From the IMG/VR virus record IMGVR_UViG_3300046507_000906, positions 1 through 50,722 of that record: a DNA stretch of 50,722 nt. The stretch is one strand, 5' to 3'. The position numbers and the translations under genes are program-made. This document shows positions 26,198 through 50,722 of this stretch, in pieces; within the stretch, counting starts at the first letter, position 1, and the number at the start of each line of letters is the position of its first letter. This DNA comes from a virus. The notes beneath the pieces are model-generated. The model was not told the DNA's origin. It was given only the letters and a program-made list of their open reading frames with translations, and did no database searches.

Positions 26198-26533
26198 ATG
26201 ATCGGGATGATCGGACTGGACCGCCACACCGGCCAACTCATTTCCGGCCTCGATCACCTGCGCCAGTCCATCGAGGACATCTTGTCCACGCCCTTGGGCA
26301 GCCGCCGCATGCGCCCGGAGTACGGCAGCAAGCTGCGGCGCTTTGTCGACTTGCCGGTGAATGACGGCTGGAAAAGTGCCGTGCAGGCGGAGGTGGCCAG
26401 CACGCTCGGGCGTTGGGAGCCGCGCTTGAAACTGGGGCGGGTGCGCGCGGTCGCCATTCTCGACGGGCGAATCACCTTTGAGCTGACCGGGCAGTACCTC
26501 GGCAGCGACGTGACTTTGGAGGTGTCCGCATGA
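26198..26533 (+). CDS. Baseplate protein gpW / gp25-like
   Basis: A 111-residue baseplate wedge protein of the T4 gp25/P2 gpW family, with the hallmark block HLRQSIEDILSTPLGSRRMR followed by PEYGSKLRRFVDLPVNDGWK and a beta C-terminus (DGRITFELTGQYLGSDVTL). It starts sheath assembly at the baseplate. It overlaps the gpJ start by 4 bases. Confidence 0.93.
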   Translation: MIGMIGLDRHTGQLISGLDHLRQSIEDILSTPLGSRRMRPEYGSKLRRFVDLPVNDGWKSAVQAEVASTLGRWEPRLKLGRVRAVAILDGRITFELTGQYLGSDVTLEVSA

Positions 26534-30689: not shown

Positions 30690-31853
30690 ATGAGTTTTTT
30701 TCACGGCGTCACCGTGACTCTAGTGGACACCGGGGCACGCCACATCGCCACCCCGTCCGCGTCGATCATCGGCCTGTGCAACACCTTTACCGTGGGCCCG
30801 CCGGCCACGGCCGCCGCCAACGAACTGCTGCTGATCACCCGCGAAAGCGAAGCGGTCGCGGCGTGGGGGCCGGATGCGGCGATCACCCAGGACTGCAAGG
30901 CTATTTTCAAGCGGTCGAAGGCGGTGATTGTCGCCGTCGGTGTGCCGTTGCTGGACGACGCGGCCGAGCAACTGTCCGCGATCATCGGCGGCGTTTGGGC
31001 CGACGGCACCCGTACCGGCATGCAGGCGTTGCTCAACGGCAAAAGCAAGTTCAACGCCCAGCCGCGATTGTTGGTGACGCCGGGGTACTCGTCGACACTG
31101 GCGGTGGCCACCGAGCTGGTGGCGTTGGGCGACAAGATGCGCGCCATGGCTATCATCGACGGGCCGAACACCACCGACGAAGCGGCGATTGCCTATGCCG
31201 CCAATTTCGGCAGCAAACACGCTTATATGGTCGATCCGGGCGTGCAGTTCTGGGACACCACGACCAGTGCCACGATCAACGCACCGGCTTCGGCCTGGAC
31301 CGCTGGTCTGTTTGCCTGGACCGATGCCACCTACGGTTTCTGGGCCTCGCCGTCGAACAAGGAGTTTGTCGGCATCACCGGCACTACGCGCCCGATCGAG
31401 TTTCTCGACGGCGATCCTTCCTGCCGGGCCAACGTGCTGAACAACGCGAACATCACCACGATCATTCGTGATGACGGCTATCGCTTGTGGGGCAACCGTA
31501 CGCTGTCCAGCGATCCGAAATGGAAGTTCGTCACCCGCGTGCGCACGCTGGACATCGTCATGGACGCCATCCTCTACGCACACAAGTGGGCGGTGGACCG
31601 CTCGATCACCGCGACCTACGTCAAGGACGTGACCGAAGGCCTGCAAGCCTTCATGCGCGACCTGAAGAACCAAGGCGCGATCGTCAACTTCGAGGTGTAT
31701 GCCGACGAAGAGCTGAACACGTCCAGCGAACTGAGCGACGGCAAGGTGTACTGGAACATCCGTTTCACCGACGTGCCGCCGGCCGAAAACCCGAACTTCC
31801 GCGTGGAGGTGACCGATCAGTGGATCACTGAAGTGCTGGACACCGCCGCCTGA
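30690..31853 (+). CDS. Contractile tail sheath protein gpFI
   Basis: A 387-residue P2-type sheath: MSFFHGVTVTLVDTGARHIA at the start, NGKSKFNAQPRLLVTPGYSS in the middle and the typical end NVLNNANITTIIRDDGYRLW, WKFVTRVRTLDIVMDAILYA. The C-terminal domain (residues ~284-387) faces the tube and links neighbouring subunits. A second, separate gene with nearly this whole C-terminal domain follows directly, which is unusual. Confidence 0.95.
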   Translation: MSFFHGVTVTLVDTGARHIATPSASIIGLCNTFTVGPPATAAANELLLITRESEAVAAWGPDAAITQDCKAIFKRSKAVIVAVGVPLLDDAAEQLSAIIGGVWADGTRTGMQALLNGKSKFNAQPRLLVTPGYSSTLAVATELVALGDKMRAMAIIDGPNTTDEAAIAYAANFGSKHAYMVDPGVQFWDTTTSATINAPASAWTAGLFAWTDATYGFWASPSNKEFVGITGTTRPIEFLDGDPSCRANVLNNANITTIIRDDGYRLWGNRTLSSDPKWKFVTRVRTLDIVMDAILYAHKWAVDRSITATYVKDVTEGLQAFMRDLKNQGAIVNFEVYADEELNTSSELSDGKVYWNIRFTDVPPAENPNFRVEVTDQWITEVLDTAA

Positions 31854-31854
31854 G

Positions 31855-32236
31855 GAGGCCGCTTTATGATTTTGCCCAAAGTGACCCTTAAGACCGACGT
31901 GTGCACCCAGGTGCGCCTGCTGGAGATCGTCAAGGACGCCATCCTCTATGCGCACAAATGGGCGGTCGATCACTCGATCACCAACACCTACGTCAAGGAA
32001 GTGACCGCCGGCCTGCAGGCATTCACTCGCGACCTGAACAGCCAGGGAGCGAGCATCAATGTCGAGGTGTACGCCCCCGAAGAGTTGAACACCGGCAGCA
32101 CACTCAGCGAGGGCAAGGCGTACTGGAACGTCTGGCTCACCAAGCTGCTGTCGGGCGAAGAGTCCATCCACCGCATGGAGGTGACCGATCAGTGGGTCCC
32201 GGAAGTGCTGTTGCCTAAAGAGGCCGCTTTATGATT
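31855..32236 (+). repeat. Tandem partial duplication with flanking direct repeats
   Basis: The 17-base sequence GAGGCCGCTTTATGATT occurs at 31855-31871 and again at 32220-32236, each time as the ribosome-binding and start region of the following gene. The 365 bases between the copies hold the duplicated sheath end. The repeats are the likely footprint of the duplication event. Confidence 0.8.
31866..32234 (+). CDS. Separate copy of the sheath C-terminal domain (chimeric)
   Basis: A 122-residue protein. Residues about 14-118 align without gaps to the last ~100 residues of the sheath encoded just upstream; about two thirds are identical by hand count, with DAILYAHKWAVD and EVTDQW kept exactly. 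The first ten residues (MILPKVTLKTD) are unlike the sheath but resemble LTLPKLTLKTD of the tube protein downstream. So it looks like a fusion of a bit of tube with the sheath tail. It has its own strong ribosome binding site (GAGGAGG) and uninterrupted frame, and is probably translated. Confidence 0.85.
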   Translation: MILPKVTLKTDVCTQVRLLEIVKDAILYAHKWAVDHSITNTYVKEVTAGLQAFTRDLNSQGASINVEVYAPEELNTGSTLSEGKAYWNVWLTKLLSGEESIHRMEVTDQWVPEVLLPKEAAL

Positions 32237-32734
32237 CCGCAAGTGCTCTACAACACCAATCTGTTTGTCGACGGTGTCAGCCTGCAAGGTGACGTGCCGA
32301 GCCTGACCCTGCCCAAGCTGACGCTCAAGACCGACGAGTACCGCGCGGGTGGCATGGACGCGGCAGTGGAGCTCGACATGGGTATGGAAAAGCTGGAAGC
32401 CAGCTTCCTCACCAACGGCGTGCGCCGCGAGGTGCTGAAATTCTTCGGCCAGGCCGACCTGACCGGGTTCAACGCTTCGTTCCGCGGTGCCTTCAAGGGG
32501 CAGGGAGGTGCGACCACAGGTGTGATCGCCACTCTGCGTGGCGGACTCAAGGAAGTCGATCCGGGGGACTGGAAGGCGGGCGAAAAAGGCGAGTTCAAGT
32601 ACGCCGTCGCGGTGACCTATTACAAGCTGGAAATCGACGGCAGCGTGATGTTTGAAATTGATCCCCTCAACTCGATCCGCGTTATCGACGGCATCGACCA
32701 ACTGGCCGCCGTGCGGTCTGCCTTGGGCATGTAA
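32231..32734 (+). CDS. Tail tube protein gpFII
   Basis: A 167-residue P2-like tube protein: MIPQVLYNTNLFVDGVSLQG, LTLPKLTLKTDEYRAGGMDA, VDPGDWKAGEKGEFKYAVAV and a beta-rich end (YKLEIDGSVMFEIDPLNSIR). It polymerises inside the sheath. Its start region repeats that of the preceding partial sheath gene, and it overlaps that gene by 4 bases. Confidence 0.95.
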   Translation: MIPQVLYNTNLFVDGVSLQGDVPSLTLPKLTLKTDEYRAGGMDAAVELDMGMEKLEASFLTNGVRREVLKFFGQADLTGFNASFRGAFKGQGGATTGVIATLRGGLKEVDPGDWKAGEKGEFKYAVAVTYYKLEIDGSVMFEIDPLNSIRVIDGIDQLAAVRSALGM

Positions 32735-35551: not shown

Positions 35552-36409
35552 ATGTCGGATGAAAAAACCTACCTGCAACACTTGCAGGGCGGGCTGAAGT
35601 ACATGGTCGACGCCGGTGAAGCCGGCCGCACTGACCTCGAGTCGATGACCGGGCCAATGAATGGCGCGCTCAATGAAATCAGCGGGGCGGCCGATGCGCT
35701 GGAAGGTTTGCCCTTTATCAGCGAAGACCTGAGTGACAAGACCCGGCGTCTGCAAAGTGCAATCAACTCGGCCCAGGCCAAGATCGGCAAGGTGGCCAGC
35801 TACTACAACCAGACCCAGCGCGCACTGGCCGGGTTCGAGGAGCACTTTTCCGCACTGACTAAGCAGATTGGCCGCGTTGGCGCGGCGTTCAGCAAGGTCG
35901 CCGGTAAGGCCAATGCCGCGCTGGGGAACATCTTCCCCACGGAATGGTTTGCTGGCGACATGACGCCGATCCCGGACGCGGTGAAGCCGTTTCCGCACCT
36001 GCTGATCATCTATCCGCTCAAGGCCAGCGAGCGGCCGTATTACTTCAACCTGGACACCGCGGCCTTTGACGAGCTGCGCCGGCAAACGTCGTTTCGCTGG
36101 GCCGCGCAGGAGCGCCTGACCCGGCGCCCGGCGCAGCAGGCGGTGGGGCTGGGCGAGGAAAAAATCACGATCAAAGGCGCGATCTACCCCAACTACAAAG
36201 GCGGCTTGAAGCAGCTGGATACGCTGCGCAGCATCGGCGCCAAGTTGTTGCCGTTGAACCTGACCACCGGTTATGGCGAGGTGCTGGGCAACTGGTGCCT
36301 GACCGCTATCGACGAGGAACAAAGCGCCTTGCTGCCAGGCGCCATTCCGCGCAAGCAGGGTTTTTCATTGGAGTTTGTCCGTTATGGCGATGACTTGCAG
36401 AACAGCTGA
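35552..36409 (+). CDS. Tail protein gpU with N-terminal extension
   Basis: A 285-residue protein. The C-terminal half (about 140-285; HLLIIYPLKASERPYYFNLD, AAFDELRRQTSFRWAAQERL, TGYGEVLGNWCLTAIDEEQS) is the P2 gpU domain that terminates tail and joins it to the head. The N-terminal 140 residues are a long helical region (SDKTRRLQSAINSAQAKIGK) absent from P2 gpU. It could carry an additional tape-measure-like or assembly role. The tail-X gene overlaps its end. Confidence 0.85.
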   Translation: MSDEKTYLQHLQGGLKYMVDAGEAGRTDLESMTGPMNGALNEISGAADALEGLPFISEDLSDKTRRLQSAINSAQAKIGKVASYYNQTQRALAGFEEHFSALTKQIGRVGAAFSKVAGKANAALGNIFPTEWFAGDMTPIPDAVKPFPHLLIIYPLKASERPYYFNLDTAAFDELRRQTSFRWAAQERLTRRPAQQAVGLGEEKITIKGAIYPNYKGGLKQLDTLRSIGAKLLPLNLTTGYGEVLGNWCLTAIDEEQSALLPGAIPRKQGFSLEFVRYGDDLQNS

Positions 36410-37862: not shown

Positions 37863-37879
37863 TAAAGGTCTTGCTATCC

Positions 37880-38674
37880 ATGTCTACCCCTATCATCCCT
37901 TGGATGGGCGGCAAACGCCGTCTGGCCGATCGCCTGATTCCGCTGTTTCCCCCTCACGAATGCTACGTCGAGGTCTTTGCCGGCGGTGCCGCGTTGTACT
38001 TCATGCGACCGCAGGCGGCGCCGGTGGAAGTGCTCAACGACATCAACGGCGACCTCGTGACGCTGTACCGCGTGGTGCAGAACCACCTCGAAGAGTTTGT
38101 GCGCCAGTTCAAGTGGGCGCTTAGTTCGCGCCAGGTGTTTGAGTGGCAGAAAATGACCCGCGTCGAAACCCTCACCGACATCCAGCGTGCCGCTCGATTC
38201 TTCTAGCTGCAGCACCATGCCTTCGCCGGCAAGGTCTCCGGGCAGACCTTCGGTACCGCGACCACCGCCCCGTCGATCAACCTGCTGCGCATCGAAGAAA
38301 ACCTCTCGGCCGCCTGGCAACGTCTGTCGGGCACCTATGTCGAGAACCTGCCGTGGCTGGAATGTGCCGAACGCTACGACCGGGCTCACACCTTCCACTA
38401 CATGGACCCGCCGTACTGGCAGACCGCAGGTTATGGGGTGGATTTTCCGTTTGAGAACTACGAGCGCATGGCCGACTTCATGCGTCGCTGCAAGGGCAGG
38501 GTGATGGTCAGCATCAACGATCACCCCGACATCCGCCGTGTGTTCGAAGGCTTTCACTTCGAAACGCTGGACATCCGCTACACCACAACCAACCAGCGAC
38601 AGGGCAAGGCCGAGGTCAGTGGCGAACTGGTGATCATGAACTGGGAGCCGGCAGCATTAGGGGGACTGTTTTAG
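37880..38674 (+). pseudogene. dam: Dam-like adenine-N6 methyltransferase interrupted by amber codon
   Basis: A 264-codon adenine methyltransferase reading frame: the SAM-binding part IPWMGGKRRLADRLIPLFPP, HECYVEVFAGGAAL, and the catalytic DPPY in FHYMDPPYWQ near residue 175. A single in-frame TAG at 38204-38206 (codon 109) interrupts it; the sequence on both sides stays homologous, with RFF-[stop]-LQHHAFAGKV. A tyrosine codon is expected there, so one base change (TAC or TAT to TAG) is enough. As it stands the gene is dead unless amber is suppressed. It should have methylated adenine to protect phage DNA. Confidence 0.88.
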
Positions 38675-39380: not shown

Positions 39381-39683
39381 TCACTGTTTACGATTTCCAC
39401 CACCGCTCTGTTCACCTCCTTTACGCCCCGCTTCAGAGGCTTTCTCCCGATCATTGGCAAAGTTTCCGCCGCGACCACTTCCCTGGCCACCGTCAGATTG
39501 ACTAGATTCGCTTGATTGGCGTCCTCCCGACGCCTGGCCACCTTTTTGGCCTGCCTCTGAGGCTCGCTGCGGATCATTGGCAAAATTGCCGCCAGACACT
39601 GATCCGCCTTTCTTACCCGCTTCAGAAGCCTTTTCTGGGTCATTAGCGAAATTGCCTGGATTGTCGTTTCCTGAATTAGCCAT
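39381..39683 (-). CDS. KGG-repeat (con-10 / YciG type) general stress protein
   Basis: A 100-residue hydrophilic protein with three copies of the unit NFANDPEKASEAGKKGG (residues ~11-27, 33-49, and 73-89, with small changes). This is the KGG/con-10 family repeat, known from general-stress proteins such as YciG. The spacer between repeats 2 and 3 is rich in Q, S and G. It is expected to be RpoS-dependent and protective in stationary phase. GAGGTG precedes the ATG at 39683. Confidence 0.9.
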   Translation of the reverse strand: MANSGNDNPGNFANDPEKASEAGKKGGSVSGGNFANDPQRASEAGQKGGQASGGRQSSESSQSDGGQGSGRGGNFANDREKASEAGRKGGEQSGGGNRKQ

Positions 39684-46862: not shown

Positions 46863-49157
46863 GTGGCGCGTTATCTACCTATCCTGGTGTTCACGATCGG
46901 ATTAGCGCAGGTATCACCGGTACTCGCCGAGACGTTCACCTGGACGGGATTTGGTTGCTATACGTGCCCGGGTTCGTGGACGCCGCAAGGGGTCCCCGAC
47001 AGACTGGGAGAGGACGCTTTATTCGCCAGTAGCGGCGCTAACAGGGTCGAAATGGCCTTCCCGCCCGGGGTAGGCCCATCATCCTGGGTATTCGCAGCCA
47101 ATGGTCAAGATTACGTAATAGTAGGCTTTCCAATTGCCTTCACCGGCTCCGGCCTGATCAGCAACTCCTCCGAATTGATCGTCATCGGCAATAACCTCAT
47201 CGGGGCCGGTGGTGTGACCCAGAACGGCGGTGGAACGCTGGTACTGAACGGAGACAATACGTACACCGGCGGCACCACCATTAACGCCGGCACTGTTTCA
47301 GTCAACGCGGATAATAACCTCGGGGCCTCAACTGGGACGTTGGCCATCGGCGACGGCAGACTCAACACCAAGCAGACTTTTGCGACAAACCGCTCGGTCA
47401 CCCTGACCGGCAACGCCTCACTTACGCAAGATGTTGGTACCGGCTTAACCCTGAACGGCGTGATCAGTGGCTCGGGCTCTCTGGCCCTGGACGGTGATGG
47501 CGGTCCCGGCGGGCTGGTGACTCTCAATGGCGACAACACCTACACAGGTTCGACCAACCTGAACAGCGGGTTGCTGTTCGTCAATGGTTCAATTGCAAGT
47601 TCCAGCCAGCTGACCACCAACCCGGAAACATTCCTAGGTGGCACCGGCACACTACCGAGCAGCACGATCAGCGGAGCCGTTTCACCAGGGCCGGCCCGCG
47701 ATACAACTGGCACCCTCAGCATCGCCGGAAACCTGACCACCGCCCCCACGGCCAATTACATCGTGGACTTCAATCCAAGCGGCGCGCACGACCTGATTCA
47801 TGCCACCAACGTCGCTACGCTGAACAATGCCGATGCCACCACCTTACTCAACGGCTTTATCCCGGTGGTGAACCAGCGGTACGCGATCCTCACCGCCGAC
47901 GGCGGCGTCAACGGCACCTTCAATTACCCGACCCGACAGCTGCCGCTGTCGACCGTCAGCCTCACCTACGACCAGAACAATGCCTACTTCCTTGTCGCCC
48001 GCAATCAGGTACCTATCGGCGGAACACCATTGCCCCCAATAGTCGTGGTCCCTCCCGGTGGCAATACACCCCAACCACCTATCGCGATCACCCCGCCACA
48101 AACCTCGACCGGGGGCGCCGTGGATTTGTTACCGCCAGAAAATCCGATCCTCGGCGGGATCATCCTGTTGCCCTCCGTGGGTGAAATCCGGGTTGCTCTC
48201 GATCAATTGTCGGGGCAGGTTAACCCATCACTCATGACCATTATGCTGGAGGATAGCCACTTCGTGCGGGACGCGGTCTTTGACCGTCTCGACACACCAT
48301 TGGGTGCGCCGATCACGCCCCACCGGGAGTCGGACAACACGGTGCAACTGGCTCCGAACCTTACCGCATGGTTGCAAGGTGTGGGTGCCCACCGTGAACA
48401 AAATGACCTATCGGCTGACACCGGCGGGACGTTCCTGGGGCTTGACTCGCGCATCACCGACTCCACCACACTGGGCGTTTTGCTTGGCTACACGCGGTCC
48501 AATGCTGACGCGCGCTACGGCTCGGCCGATGGCGAAAATTACACCGTTGGCGCGTACGTCGGTACGCTGCTCGGGCCGTTGTCGCTAAAGGCCGGCACCA
48601 GCTACACAGTCAATGAGATCGATACTCGCAGAACGGTAAACTTCAACAGTTTTAGTGACTCTCCTCACGCGGATTACTCAGCCAATACCACTCAGGTTTT
48701 CAGCGATGTCGGGTACAGATTACATGCGGGATCCGTGGTGCTAGAACCGTATGCCGGCCTCGCATGGGTAAAGGTGAGCGCCGATGGGTTTACCGAACAA
48801 GGTGGGCCTGCCGCTCTCACCGTGGATAGCAGCAACAACGACGTGACGTACAGCACCTTGGGAGTGCGACCCAGCTACACATTTCTCGCCAACGAGATGC
48901 CCATGAGAGTGAAGGGCGGGTTGGGATGGCGCCACACGTTCGGTGACCTCGAACCCTCCGACAAAAACGCATTCGCCCGGACCGCCAATACCTTCGCGAT
49001 CCCCGGGGTACCGCTGGCCGAGGACGTGACGGTCGTCAATTTGGGGGTGGAAGCAGCCCTGACCCCGAGTACCAACCTGAGCCTGACCTACAACGGCCAG
49101 TTAGCCAGCGACGCGCATGAGAACGGTCTCGTGGGGTTGTTGAGGGTAACATTCTAA
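46863..49157 (+). CDS. Autotransporter with short PATR-repeat passenger
   Basis: A 764-residue type V secretion protein, start GTG 46863 behind GGAGGAGAG. Signal peptide about residues 1-22 (LPILVFTIGLAQVSPVLA). The passenger (23-400) has autotransporter-associated repeats, GGGTLVLNGDNTYTGGTTIN and GLVTLNGDNTYTGSTNLNSG. A proline-rich linker (about 385-415, PLPPIVVVPPGG) and the C-terminal beta-barrel (about 490-764, ending in GLLRVTF with terminal F) follow. Host surface protein, likely in adhesion or aggregation. No protease triad seen. Confidence 0.92.
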   Translation: MARYLPILVFTIGLAQVSPVLAETFTWTGFGCYTCPGSWTPQGVPDRLGEDALFASSGANRVEMAFPPGVGPSSWVFAANGQDYVIVGFPIAFTGSGLISNSSELIVIGNNLIGAGGVTQNGGGTLVLNGDNTYTGGTTINAGTVSVNADNNLGASTGTLAIGDGRLNTKQTFATNRSVTLTGNASLTQDVGTGLTLNGVISGSGSLALDGDGGPGGLVTLNGDNTYTGSTNLNSGLLFVNGSIASSSQLTTNPETFLGGTGTLPSSTISGAVSPGPARDTTGTLSIAGNLTTAPTANYIVDFNPSGAHDLIHATNVATLNNADATTLLNGFIPVVNQRYAILTADGGVNGTFNYPTRQLPLSTVSLTYDQNNAYFLVARNQVPIGGTPLPPIVVVPPGGNTPQPPIAITPPQTSTGGAVDLLPPENPILGGIILLPSVGEIRVALDQLSGQVNPSLMTIMLEDSHFVRDAVFDRLDTPLGAPITPHRESDNTVQLAPNLTAWLQGVGAHREQNDLSADTGGTFLGLDSRITDSTTLGVLLGYTRSNADARYGSADGENYTVGAYVGTLLGPLSLKAGTSYTVNEIDTRRTVNFNSFSDSPHADYSANTTQVFSDVGYRLHAGSVVLEPYAGLAWVKVSADGFTEQGGPAALTVDSSNNDVTYSTLGVRPSYTFLANEMPMRVKGGLGWRHTFGDLEPSDKNAFARTANTFAIPGVPLAEDVTVVNLGVEAALTPSTNLSLTYNGQLASDAHENGLVGLLRVTF

Positions 49158-49299: not shown

Positions 49300-50722
49300 G
49301 GCCGATTCTGTTGAAAAAGTCGGATTTTCAGATCACCTGAACTCAGGCACGGCCACCACCAGAGAACCTACTCACCACATTGAGTGGTTTCTCGGCCCTT
49401 CGTTGACCATTGTTGCTTTGTTATTGGGTTAATTTGAGGTTTTTGGCTTAGTGCAGGCGCACCTATCCCGGGGCAGGCGGCCCTTGGGATGTAAGTTTGG
49501 CCAGTCGACGCAGGTTCTGTACCGCAGCCGCCAGTGTGAACTCATCGGTCGCGCCGCTCATGCCACGTAGTCGCAAGCGATCCAATTTCAGGATGCGCTT
49601 GAGGTGGGCAAACAACATTTCGACCTTTTTACGTTCGTGGCGAGAGCGCTGATATGCCGGTGTTGCTGCAATGCGCCGAGCCACATCGCGAGCGGCTTCA
49701 TGGACGCTGCGAGCGATCTTGCGGAACGCAGTGTTCGGGCAGCACTTGGCTTTCATCGGACACGTCGCGCAGTCGGTCTGTCTGGATCGGAAGATGATGG
49801 TGTTGGCTTTGGTGACGTGTGAACGCTCATTCTTGAAGGCTCGCCATTCGCTGCGCAATGGGTTGCCGGCCGGGCAGCGGTATTCCTCAGCCTCTTCATT
49901 CCAGTGGAAATCGTTACTCGAAAAGCTGTCGTTCTTGCGCTCGGTTTTGTCCCACACCGGCACATGCGGCTCGATGTCTTTTTCCTCCACCATCCAGGCC
50001 AGCACCGGCGCGGTACCGTAAGCGGTGTCGCCAATGAGGCGTTCCGGCTTGATGTCGAACTGCGCCTCAACGCGATCGATCATCGTCTTGGTGCTCTCGA
50101 CTTCTGCGGTTCGATGAGCCGGTGTGGGTTCCACATCCATGATCACGCCGTGCTCGGTATCGATCAGATAATTCGTGGAGTAAGCGTAGAACGCTGGGCC
50201 ACCTGGAGCTGCGGTCCAGCGGGCTTGAGGATCAGTCAGCGATAGACGCTTCGGTAGCGTTTCGGCCAGAGCCTCTTCATTGAGTGCCTCAAGATACTCA
50301 CGCACGGCGCGGGTGCTCAGGGCCGGATCGCCCCGGTTGACCGGTTCATCTCCCGGTACGCCGCGCTGCCGACTCGCATCCGCTTTGATGATGCTGGCGT
50401 CCACGGCAAAGCCTTCGCCCTTGACCAGACCGGCGTCCATGCAACGACGCAGCACTTCATTGAACAGCCAGCGAAACAAATCGCTGTCCCGAAAACGGCC
50501 GTGTCGGTTTTTGGAAAAGGTCGAGTGATTGGGGACTTCATCTTCAAGGCTCAATCGGCAGAACCAGCGATACGCCAAGTTCAAATGGGCCTCTTCGCAC
50601 AACCGCCGCTCTGAGCGTATGCCGTAGCAATAGCCCACGATCAACATGCGGATCATCAATTCAGGATCAATCGACGGGCGCCCAATCGGGCTGTAGAAGT
50701 CGGCGAGGTGATGGCGCAAATC
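49300..50722 (-). mobile_element. IS1182-type insertion sequence, right end to window edge
   Basis: The terminal repeat GATTCTGTTGAAAAAGTCG, preceded by GGCC at 49300-49303, is identical to termini of both MITEs. The transposase gene runs leftward towards this end. The other end lies beyond base 50722. Confidence 0.82.
49463..50722 (-). CDS. IS1182-family transposase (5' end outside the window)
   Basis: At least 419 residues of an IS1182-type transposase. The N-terminal DUF772 block (IGRPSIDPELMIRMLIVGYC, YGIRSERRLCEEAHLNLAYR) and VDASIIKADAS (first catalytic D) are followed by LIGDTAYGTAPVL (second D) and RSRHERKKVEMLFAHLKRIL (the E region). A CxxC...CCP motif (TDCATCPMKAKCCP) is typical. 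The first residues before MRHHLADFYSPIG are cut off by the window. It probably mobilises the two MITEs. Confidence 0.92.
   Translation of the reverse strand, partial: DLRHHLADFYSPIGRPSIDPELMIRMLIVGYCYGIRSERRLCEEAHLNLAYRWFCRLSLEDEVPNHSTFSKNRHGRFRDSDLFRWLFNEVLRRCMDAGLVKGEGFAVDASIIKADASRQRGVPGDEPVNRGDPALSTRAVREYLEALNEEALAETLPKRLSLTDPQARWTAAPGGPAFYAYSTNYLIDTEHGVIMDVEPTPAHRTAEVESTKTMIDRVEAQFDIKPERLIGDTAYGTAPVLAWMVEEKDIEPHVPVWDKTERKNDSFSSNDFHWNEEAEEYRCPAGNPLRSEWRAFKNERSHVTKANTIIFRSRQTDCATCPMKAKCCPNTAFRKIARSVHEAARDVARRIAATPAYQRSRHERKKVEMLFAHLKRILKLDRLRLRGMSGATDEFTLAAAVQNLRRLAKLTSQGPPAPG

Follow-up and report, generated by a model that had tools for sequence, protein, structure and literature searches.

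Why should a contractile tail operon carry, between its sheath and tube genes, a separate gene for a single domain of the sheath? This arrangement is found in the window analysed here, which is the whole of the 50.7-kb (50,722-nt) IMG/VR virus record IMGVR_UViG_3300046507_000906. The window encodes a temperate Pseudomonas-type phage: there are genes for an integrase, a terminase, a portal, a head protease and a major head protein, and for a contractile tail of the P2/R-pyocin type. Its tail genes follow the order gpW/gp25, J, I, fibre, fibre assembly, sheath FI, extra gene, tube FII, E (the tail assembly chaperone), tape measure, U, X and D. The sheath FI is closely related to that of the R2 pyocin (PA0622, 3j9q; E = 4.7e-186). 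GpU (35552–36409, + strand) is 285 aa long, with the P2 GpU domain confined to residues 163–280 and preceded by a long N-terminal extension. A single in-frame stop (38204–38206) breaks a D12-class adenine DNA methyltransferase gene (37871–38674, + strand; PF02086 matches the first part), and to either side of this stop the frame is continuous. A KGG-repeat stress protein (39381–39683, − strand) and an autotransporter (46863–49157, + strand) are encoded after the phage genes, which suggests that the record runs on, at its right, past the prophage end into host chromosome. The right end of the record is occupied by a gene for a transposase-like protein (phrog_8928, phrog_3598; 49463–50719, − strand).

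What does the extra gene encode? The earlier note described a free-standing, 122-residue copy of the sheath C-terminal domain (CTD), and this description holds. PF17482 (Phage_sheath_1C) is matched at 34.0 bits, above the curated Pfam cut-off of 26.9, and BLASTP aligns the product to residues 271–383 of the adjacent sheath with 63% identity and 73% positives over 113 columns (E = 1e-45), so that the hand estimate of two thirds identity was accurate. The DNA identity between the two genes is 78% over 335 bp. PF17482 is the only domain matched: PF04984 (subtilisin-like) and the N-terminal arm are absent, and sheath residues 1–270 are without a counterpart, which rules out a complete tail sheath protein. 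Membership in the gp25/GpW family of sheath initiators is likewise ruled out, since the protein has no match to PF04965 and its hhalign comparison with the phage's own gpW (Prob 0.2) detected no sequence relation. The gene also matches phrog_16736, a one-domain-sized PHROG family (101 aa) with no assigned function that aligns with the sheath CTD and the extra protein; further sheath CTDs, free-standing or truncated, may be found in this family.

The beginning of the protein comes from elsewhere. The leader MILPKVTLKTD matches tube residues 25–35 (LTLPKLTLKTD) at 8 of 11 positions, and at 25 of 30 bases in the DNA. The earlier note thus had the length of the tube-like leader right, but its source is this internal segment rather than the tube N-terminus. 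The identical 17-base repeats that the note saw over ribosome binding site and start codon (GAGGCCGCTTTATGATT) are indeed exact at both positions (Table 1).

Table 1. Features of the tail operon that bear on the extra gene
Feature	Position	Strand	Evidence or remark
Regular sheath initiator gene gpW/gp25, intact	26198..26533	+	PF04965, 1.8e-17
Tail sheath gene FI, 387 aa, parent of the extra copy	30690..31853	+	PF04984 + PF17482
Sheath residues 282–383, duplicated handshake domain region	31533..31838	+	Gapless alignment to extra residues 14–115
17-base direct repeat, copy 1 (ribosome binding site and extra gene start)	31855..31871	+	Exact match
Extra gene, free-standing sheath C-terminal domain, 122 aa, ATG start	31866..32234	+	PF17482; kept in L002, L003, L021, L022, L023, L053; omega 0.26–0.32
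Tube-derived leader, residues 1–13 (MILPKVTLKTD...), nearly invariant across all copies	31866..31904	+	omega 0.17, p = 0.024
Platform core, residues 14–92 (sheath 282–360): two long helices and two strands accepting neighbouring arms	31905..32141	+	omega 0.26, p = 5e-7 vs 1; AF2
C-terminal arm equivalent, residues 93–115 (sheath 361–383), weakly constrained	32142..32210	+	omega 0.56 vs core 0.28, p = 0.014
Read-on tail: frame shifted vs sheath end, old stop passed, former spacer translated; stop overlaps tube start (ATGA)	32211..32234	+	
17-base direct repeat, copy 2 (tube ribosome binding site and start, within the extra gene 3' end)	32220..32236	+	Exact match
Tail tube gene FII, 167 aa	32231..32734	+	PF04985, 1.6e-58
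Tube codons 25–35, leader source	32303..32335	+	
Tape-measure gene, 781 aa	33197..35542	+	phrog_794

The copied domain is the one that knits the sheath rings together, in keeping with the earlier note. Residues 2–24 and 361–386 of the R2 pyocin sheath are the arms that a subunit donates to its neighbours, and the handshake domain contributes to the mesh around the tube (PMC8195476). Measured against these boundaries, the extra gene keeps the acceptor without the N-arm: residues 2–24 have no counterpart, the platform (282–360) is kept, and the arm (361–383) has drifted, with Ser-Ile at 100–101 and Pro112 in four of the five distinct alleles. The AF2 model (mean pLDDT 77.7; helices 12–35 and 42–59, strands 66–69 and 85–91) has the fold of the sheath handshake domain, and its best PDB match is the pyocin R2 sheath (Foldseek prob 1.00), with a modest TM of ~0.48 on query length and mostly the core covered. 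The leader is disordered in the model (pLDDT < 50). A Foldseek search of BFVD returned nothing at E ≤ 0.001; above that threshold it gave a 148-aa protein, A0A7S5RC61 (prob 1.00, TM 0.56/0.48). The product is thus predicted to fold as a free handshake platform. It resembles the R2 pyocin/P2-type sheath in sequence, predicted fold, genomic neighbour and parent gene, but differs from it in the loss of the N-arm, the subtilisin-like/protrusion domain and the conserved C-arm, and in the tube-derived leader.

How did the gene arise? The simplest history is a tandem duplication of the sheath 3' end, the spacer and the tube 5' end. This left the sheath gene, a tube start fused to a sheath CTD, and the tube gene in that order, and about 24 tube codons between the initial "MI" and "LPK" were then lost. 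The 17-base repeats are the duplicated sheath–tube spacer with its ribosome binding site and start codon, and they occur twice because the spacer was duplicated; terminal repeats of a mobile element were rejected as their origin. In four of the five distinct alleles the 3' end is shifted relative to that of the sheath: translation passes the old stop, runs through what was once the spacer, tube ribosome binding site included, and terminates at a stop overlapping the tube ATG. The allele of the Pseudomonas genome L003, on the other hand, has a sheath-like 3' third, a sheath-like stop and a 12-nt spacer before the tube. This allele (positions 1318–1677 of its locus) is a mosaic: its 5' part belongs to the extra-gene type, while its 3' third hardly differs from sheath genes and shows no preference for its own. 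The 3' third was probably acquired by recombination or conversion with a non-resident sheath gene; alternatively, it represents the ancestral end, retained.

The earlier note had proposed that the gene be sought in other Pseudomonas phages, and it is not unique to the phage of the window. Scans confirmed by tblastn found it, again between sheath and tube, in three Pseudomonas genomes (L002, L003 and L021) and three IMG/VR contigs (L022, L023 and L053). Two of these (L022 and L023) are near-identical to the window copy, while the other four are diverged relatives at 69–75% identity (70% for L053). This independent recovery from Pseudomonas genomes and IMG/VR contigs, together with the 37% amino-acid divergence, rejects a fresh duplication or an assembly artefact. 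The extra copies form one clade (support 0.96–1.0) and therefore go back to one birth. The resident sheath and tube genes of the carriers, by contrast, are scattered among those of non-carriers, a pattern that would fit a single birth followed by recombination and/or loss.

The gene is rare. Among 78 evaluable IMG/VR loci, sampled with the tube protein rather than the extra gene as query, three have a second CTD; the others have one CTD and an 11–18-nt spacer, except for one overlapping case. About 50 close sheath loci are without the extra gene, none of the 171 INPHARED phage records with a match has the domain in two places, and a search of 399 Pseudomonas genomes for the leader pattern recovered the known carrier only. 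(Three further matches with two mismatches are without the ATG-ATH start and resemble the internal tube segment.) All four diverged carriers have a terminase, located ~12 kb upstream (L002, L021), in the same virus record (L053) or on a different contig (L003), and therefore appear to be head-bearing phages or prophages, not tailocins.

Is the gene maintained? The frame is open in all seven loci, with neither stops nor frameshifts, and zero stops in four lineages would be expected with P = 0.0066 if the observed number of substitutions were placed at random, which argues against a pseudogene. Pairwise dS is similar for the extra gene, sheath and tube, while dN between diverged alleles is ~0.13–0.22 for the extra gene and 0.01–0.034 for the full sheath. 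A codon likelihood model written for the present analysis put omega at 0.012 for the sheath branches, 0.41 for the stem leading to the extra clade and 0.32 for the branches inside that clade. The selection tests use the five distinct alleles of this rare gene, few as they are, and a tree that is blurred by recombination. Forcing omega = 1 within the extra clade made the fit 11.9 log units worse (p ~1e-6), and with the extra copies alone omega was 0.26–0.27 on three topologies, with omega = 1 rejected at p = 3e-12 to 6e-12. The gene is therefore maintained, as the earlier note supposed from its open frame and its divergence: it is a functional protein-coding gene under purifying selection, and the dN/dS comparison which that note called for bears this out (omega 0.26–0.32).

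Constraint is concentrated on the leader and the platform, while the arm is looser. For four alleles, regional omega was 0.17 for the leader (p = 0.024), 0.26 for the core (p = 5e-7) and 0.75 for the C-arm alone, the last not different from 1. In a joint fit the core (0.28) differed from the arm (0.56) with p = 0.014, and leader plus core from the arm with p = 0.005. None of these regional p values is corrected for the choice of regions. Repeated conversion by resident sheaths that are identical in amino acids but differ synonymously could mimic a low omega. However, the resident sheath is never the closest to its extra copy (ranks 3–13 of 14) and its private alleles are not preferentially shared, so that conversion by the own sheath is not supported as the cause.

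What does the protein do? Whereas the evolution of the gene can be demonstrated, its function we infer: selection still preserves it, and it therefore probably does something in tail building. The best explanation, a tentative one, is that of a selected duplicate, born once, whose free platform would serve as an accessory arm-acceptor at a sheath end. The model for such a role is the gp25/GpW family (PF04965; XM1 gp15, A-1(L) gp30), whose members are free proteins of ~115–120 aa that accept two sheath arms and have a structure resembling the sheath CTD, as shown for XM1 and A-1(L) (PMC10966104 for the latter). By analogy, the extra protein would sit at an end of the sheath and work like gp25/gpW, and its most plausible placement would be beside the regular gp25/gpW, where it might stabilise or nucleate the baseplate-proximal ring. 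It differs from these initiators in that it has no sequence relation to them and in that its phage already has a real gpW. The latter is intact in every carrier checked and 99–100% identical in three of them, so that replacement of gpW is rejected and any initiator role would be additional. Several points tell against an accessory acceptor: a second initiator is not obviously needed with the regular gpW in place, the nearly sheath-identical C-arm of L003 is a poor fit to a purely acceptor role, and the AF2 leader is unstructured, with a Foldseek match mostly to the core.

The main rival, somewhat on the unlikely side, is a tolerated duplication remnant with little or no role in the particle, its frame kept mainly by the ATGA stop/start overlap and the embedded tube ribosome binding site, through which translation would couple sheath and tube expression. 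The overlap and embedded site in four of the five distinct alleles, the patchy distribution and an omega about 25 times that of the sheath (~0.3 against 0.012) are all consistent with this, and the absence of stops is explicable by coupling alone. However, coupling requires an open frame, not conserved amino acids, and yet for both the leader and the core an omega of 1 is rejected; moreover, L003, with its spacer in place of the overlap, still keeps the gene.

The earlier note thought of a cap or an initiator, and either role may still apply. It is quite improbable that the protein acts at the head-proximal end of the sheath, whether as a cap or terminator or by regulating length. The C-arm would dock in the last ring, and the missing N-arm and protrusion would halt growth. 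A C-arm-like segment is retained, and the closure of sheath ends by beta-hairpins has a known example in Mu gp37 (PMC11915804). On the other hand, the C-arm is the least constrained part of the protein, with Pro112 in four of five copies, and GpU is present. The tape-measure protein, an indirect proxy for tail length, has the same size in carriers (781–787 aa) and non-carriers (778–785 aa), with no sign of a changed tail length, which disfavours the length regulator that the earlier note had suggested. More improbable still is dominant-negative interference, in which the free domain would poison the sheath assembly of a rival phage or tailocin sharing the cell. Fast evolution and rarity would suit such a role, and the sheath is close to those of R-type pyocins, so that related machines may share hosts. 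However, the platform derives from the phage's own sheath and should therefore poison that first, the gene lies inside the tail operon, and no finding here links it to interference. Finally, stop-codon readthrough to a sheath with two C-terminal domains can be dismissed: sheath and extra gene share a frame here with no stop between them beyond the sheath TGA, but the stop is TAA in L002, L003, L021 and L053, the frame differs in L003 (11-nt gap), and what is conserved instead is a strong ribosome binding site and ATG.

Systems with multiple sheath genes are known: several jumbo phages, where these genes are reported as duplication products (PMC9230969), and Afp2/3 and Pvc2/3. Those are full-length subunits, however, whereas here a single domain was copied and joined to a tube leader. 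A brief literature search found no paper describing a free sheath CTD and no account of the origin of a separate initiator from a sheath. To return to the accessory arm-acceptor, a more specific form of it, which we consider unlikely, is that handshake platform and tube-strand leader together would make a second sheath-derived acceptor, built into the sheath end next to the gp25 initiator, and would illustrate, in a recent instance, how a free, sheath-CTD-like initiator of the gp25 kind could have arisen from a sheath gene.

What does this mean for contractile tails? Cryo-EM papers note a resemblance of the sheath initiators gp25/GpW to the sheath C-terminal domain, and the extra gene is a free sheath C-terminal domain that has arisen recently, through a traceable duplication, and is under selection. 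Related phages exist with and without the gene, which makes its function directly testable. Even if it were only a tolerated remnant, it would still show clearly that an in-frame duplicate the size of one domain can survive in a compact tail operon.
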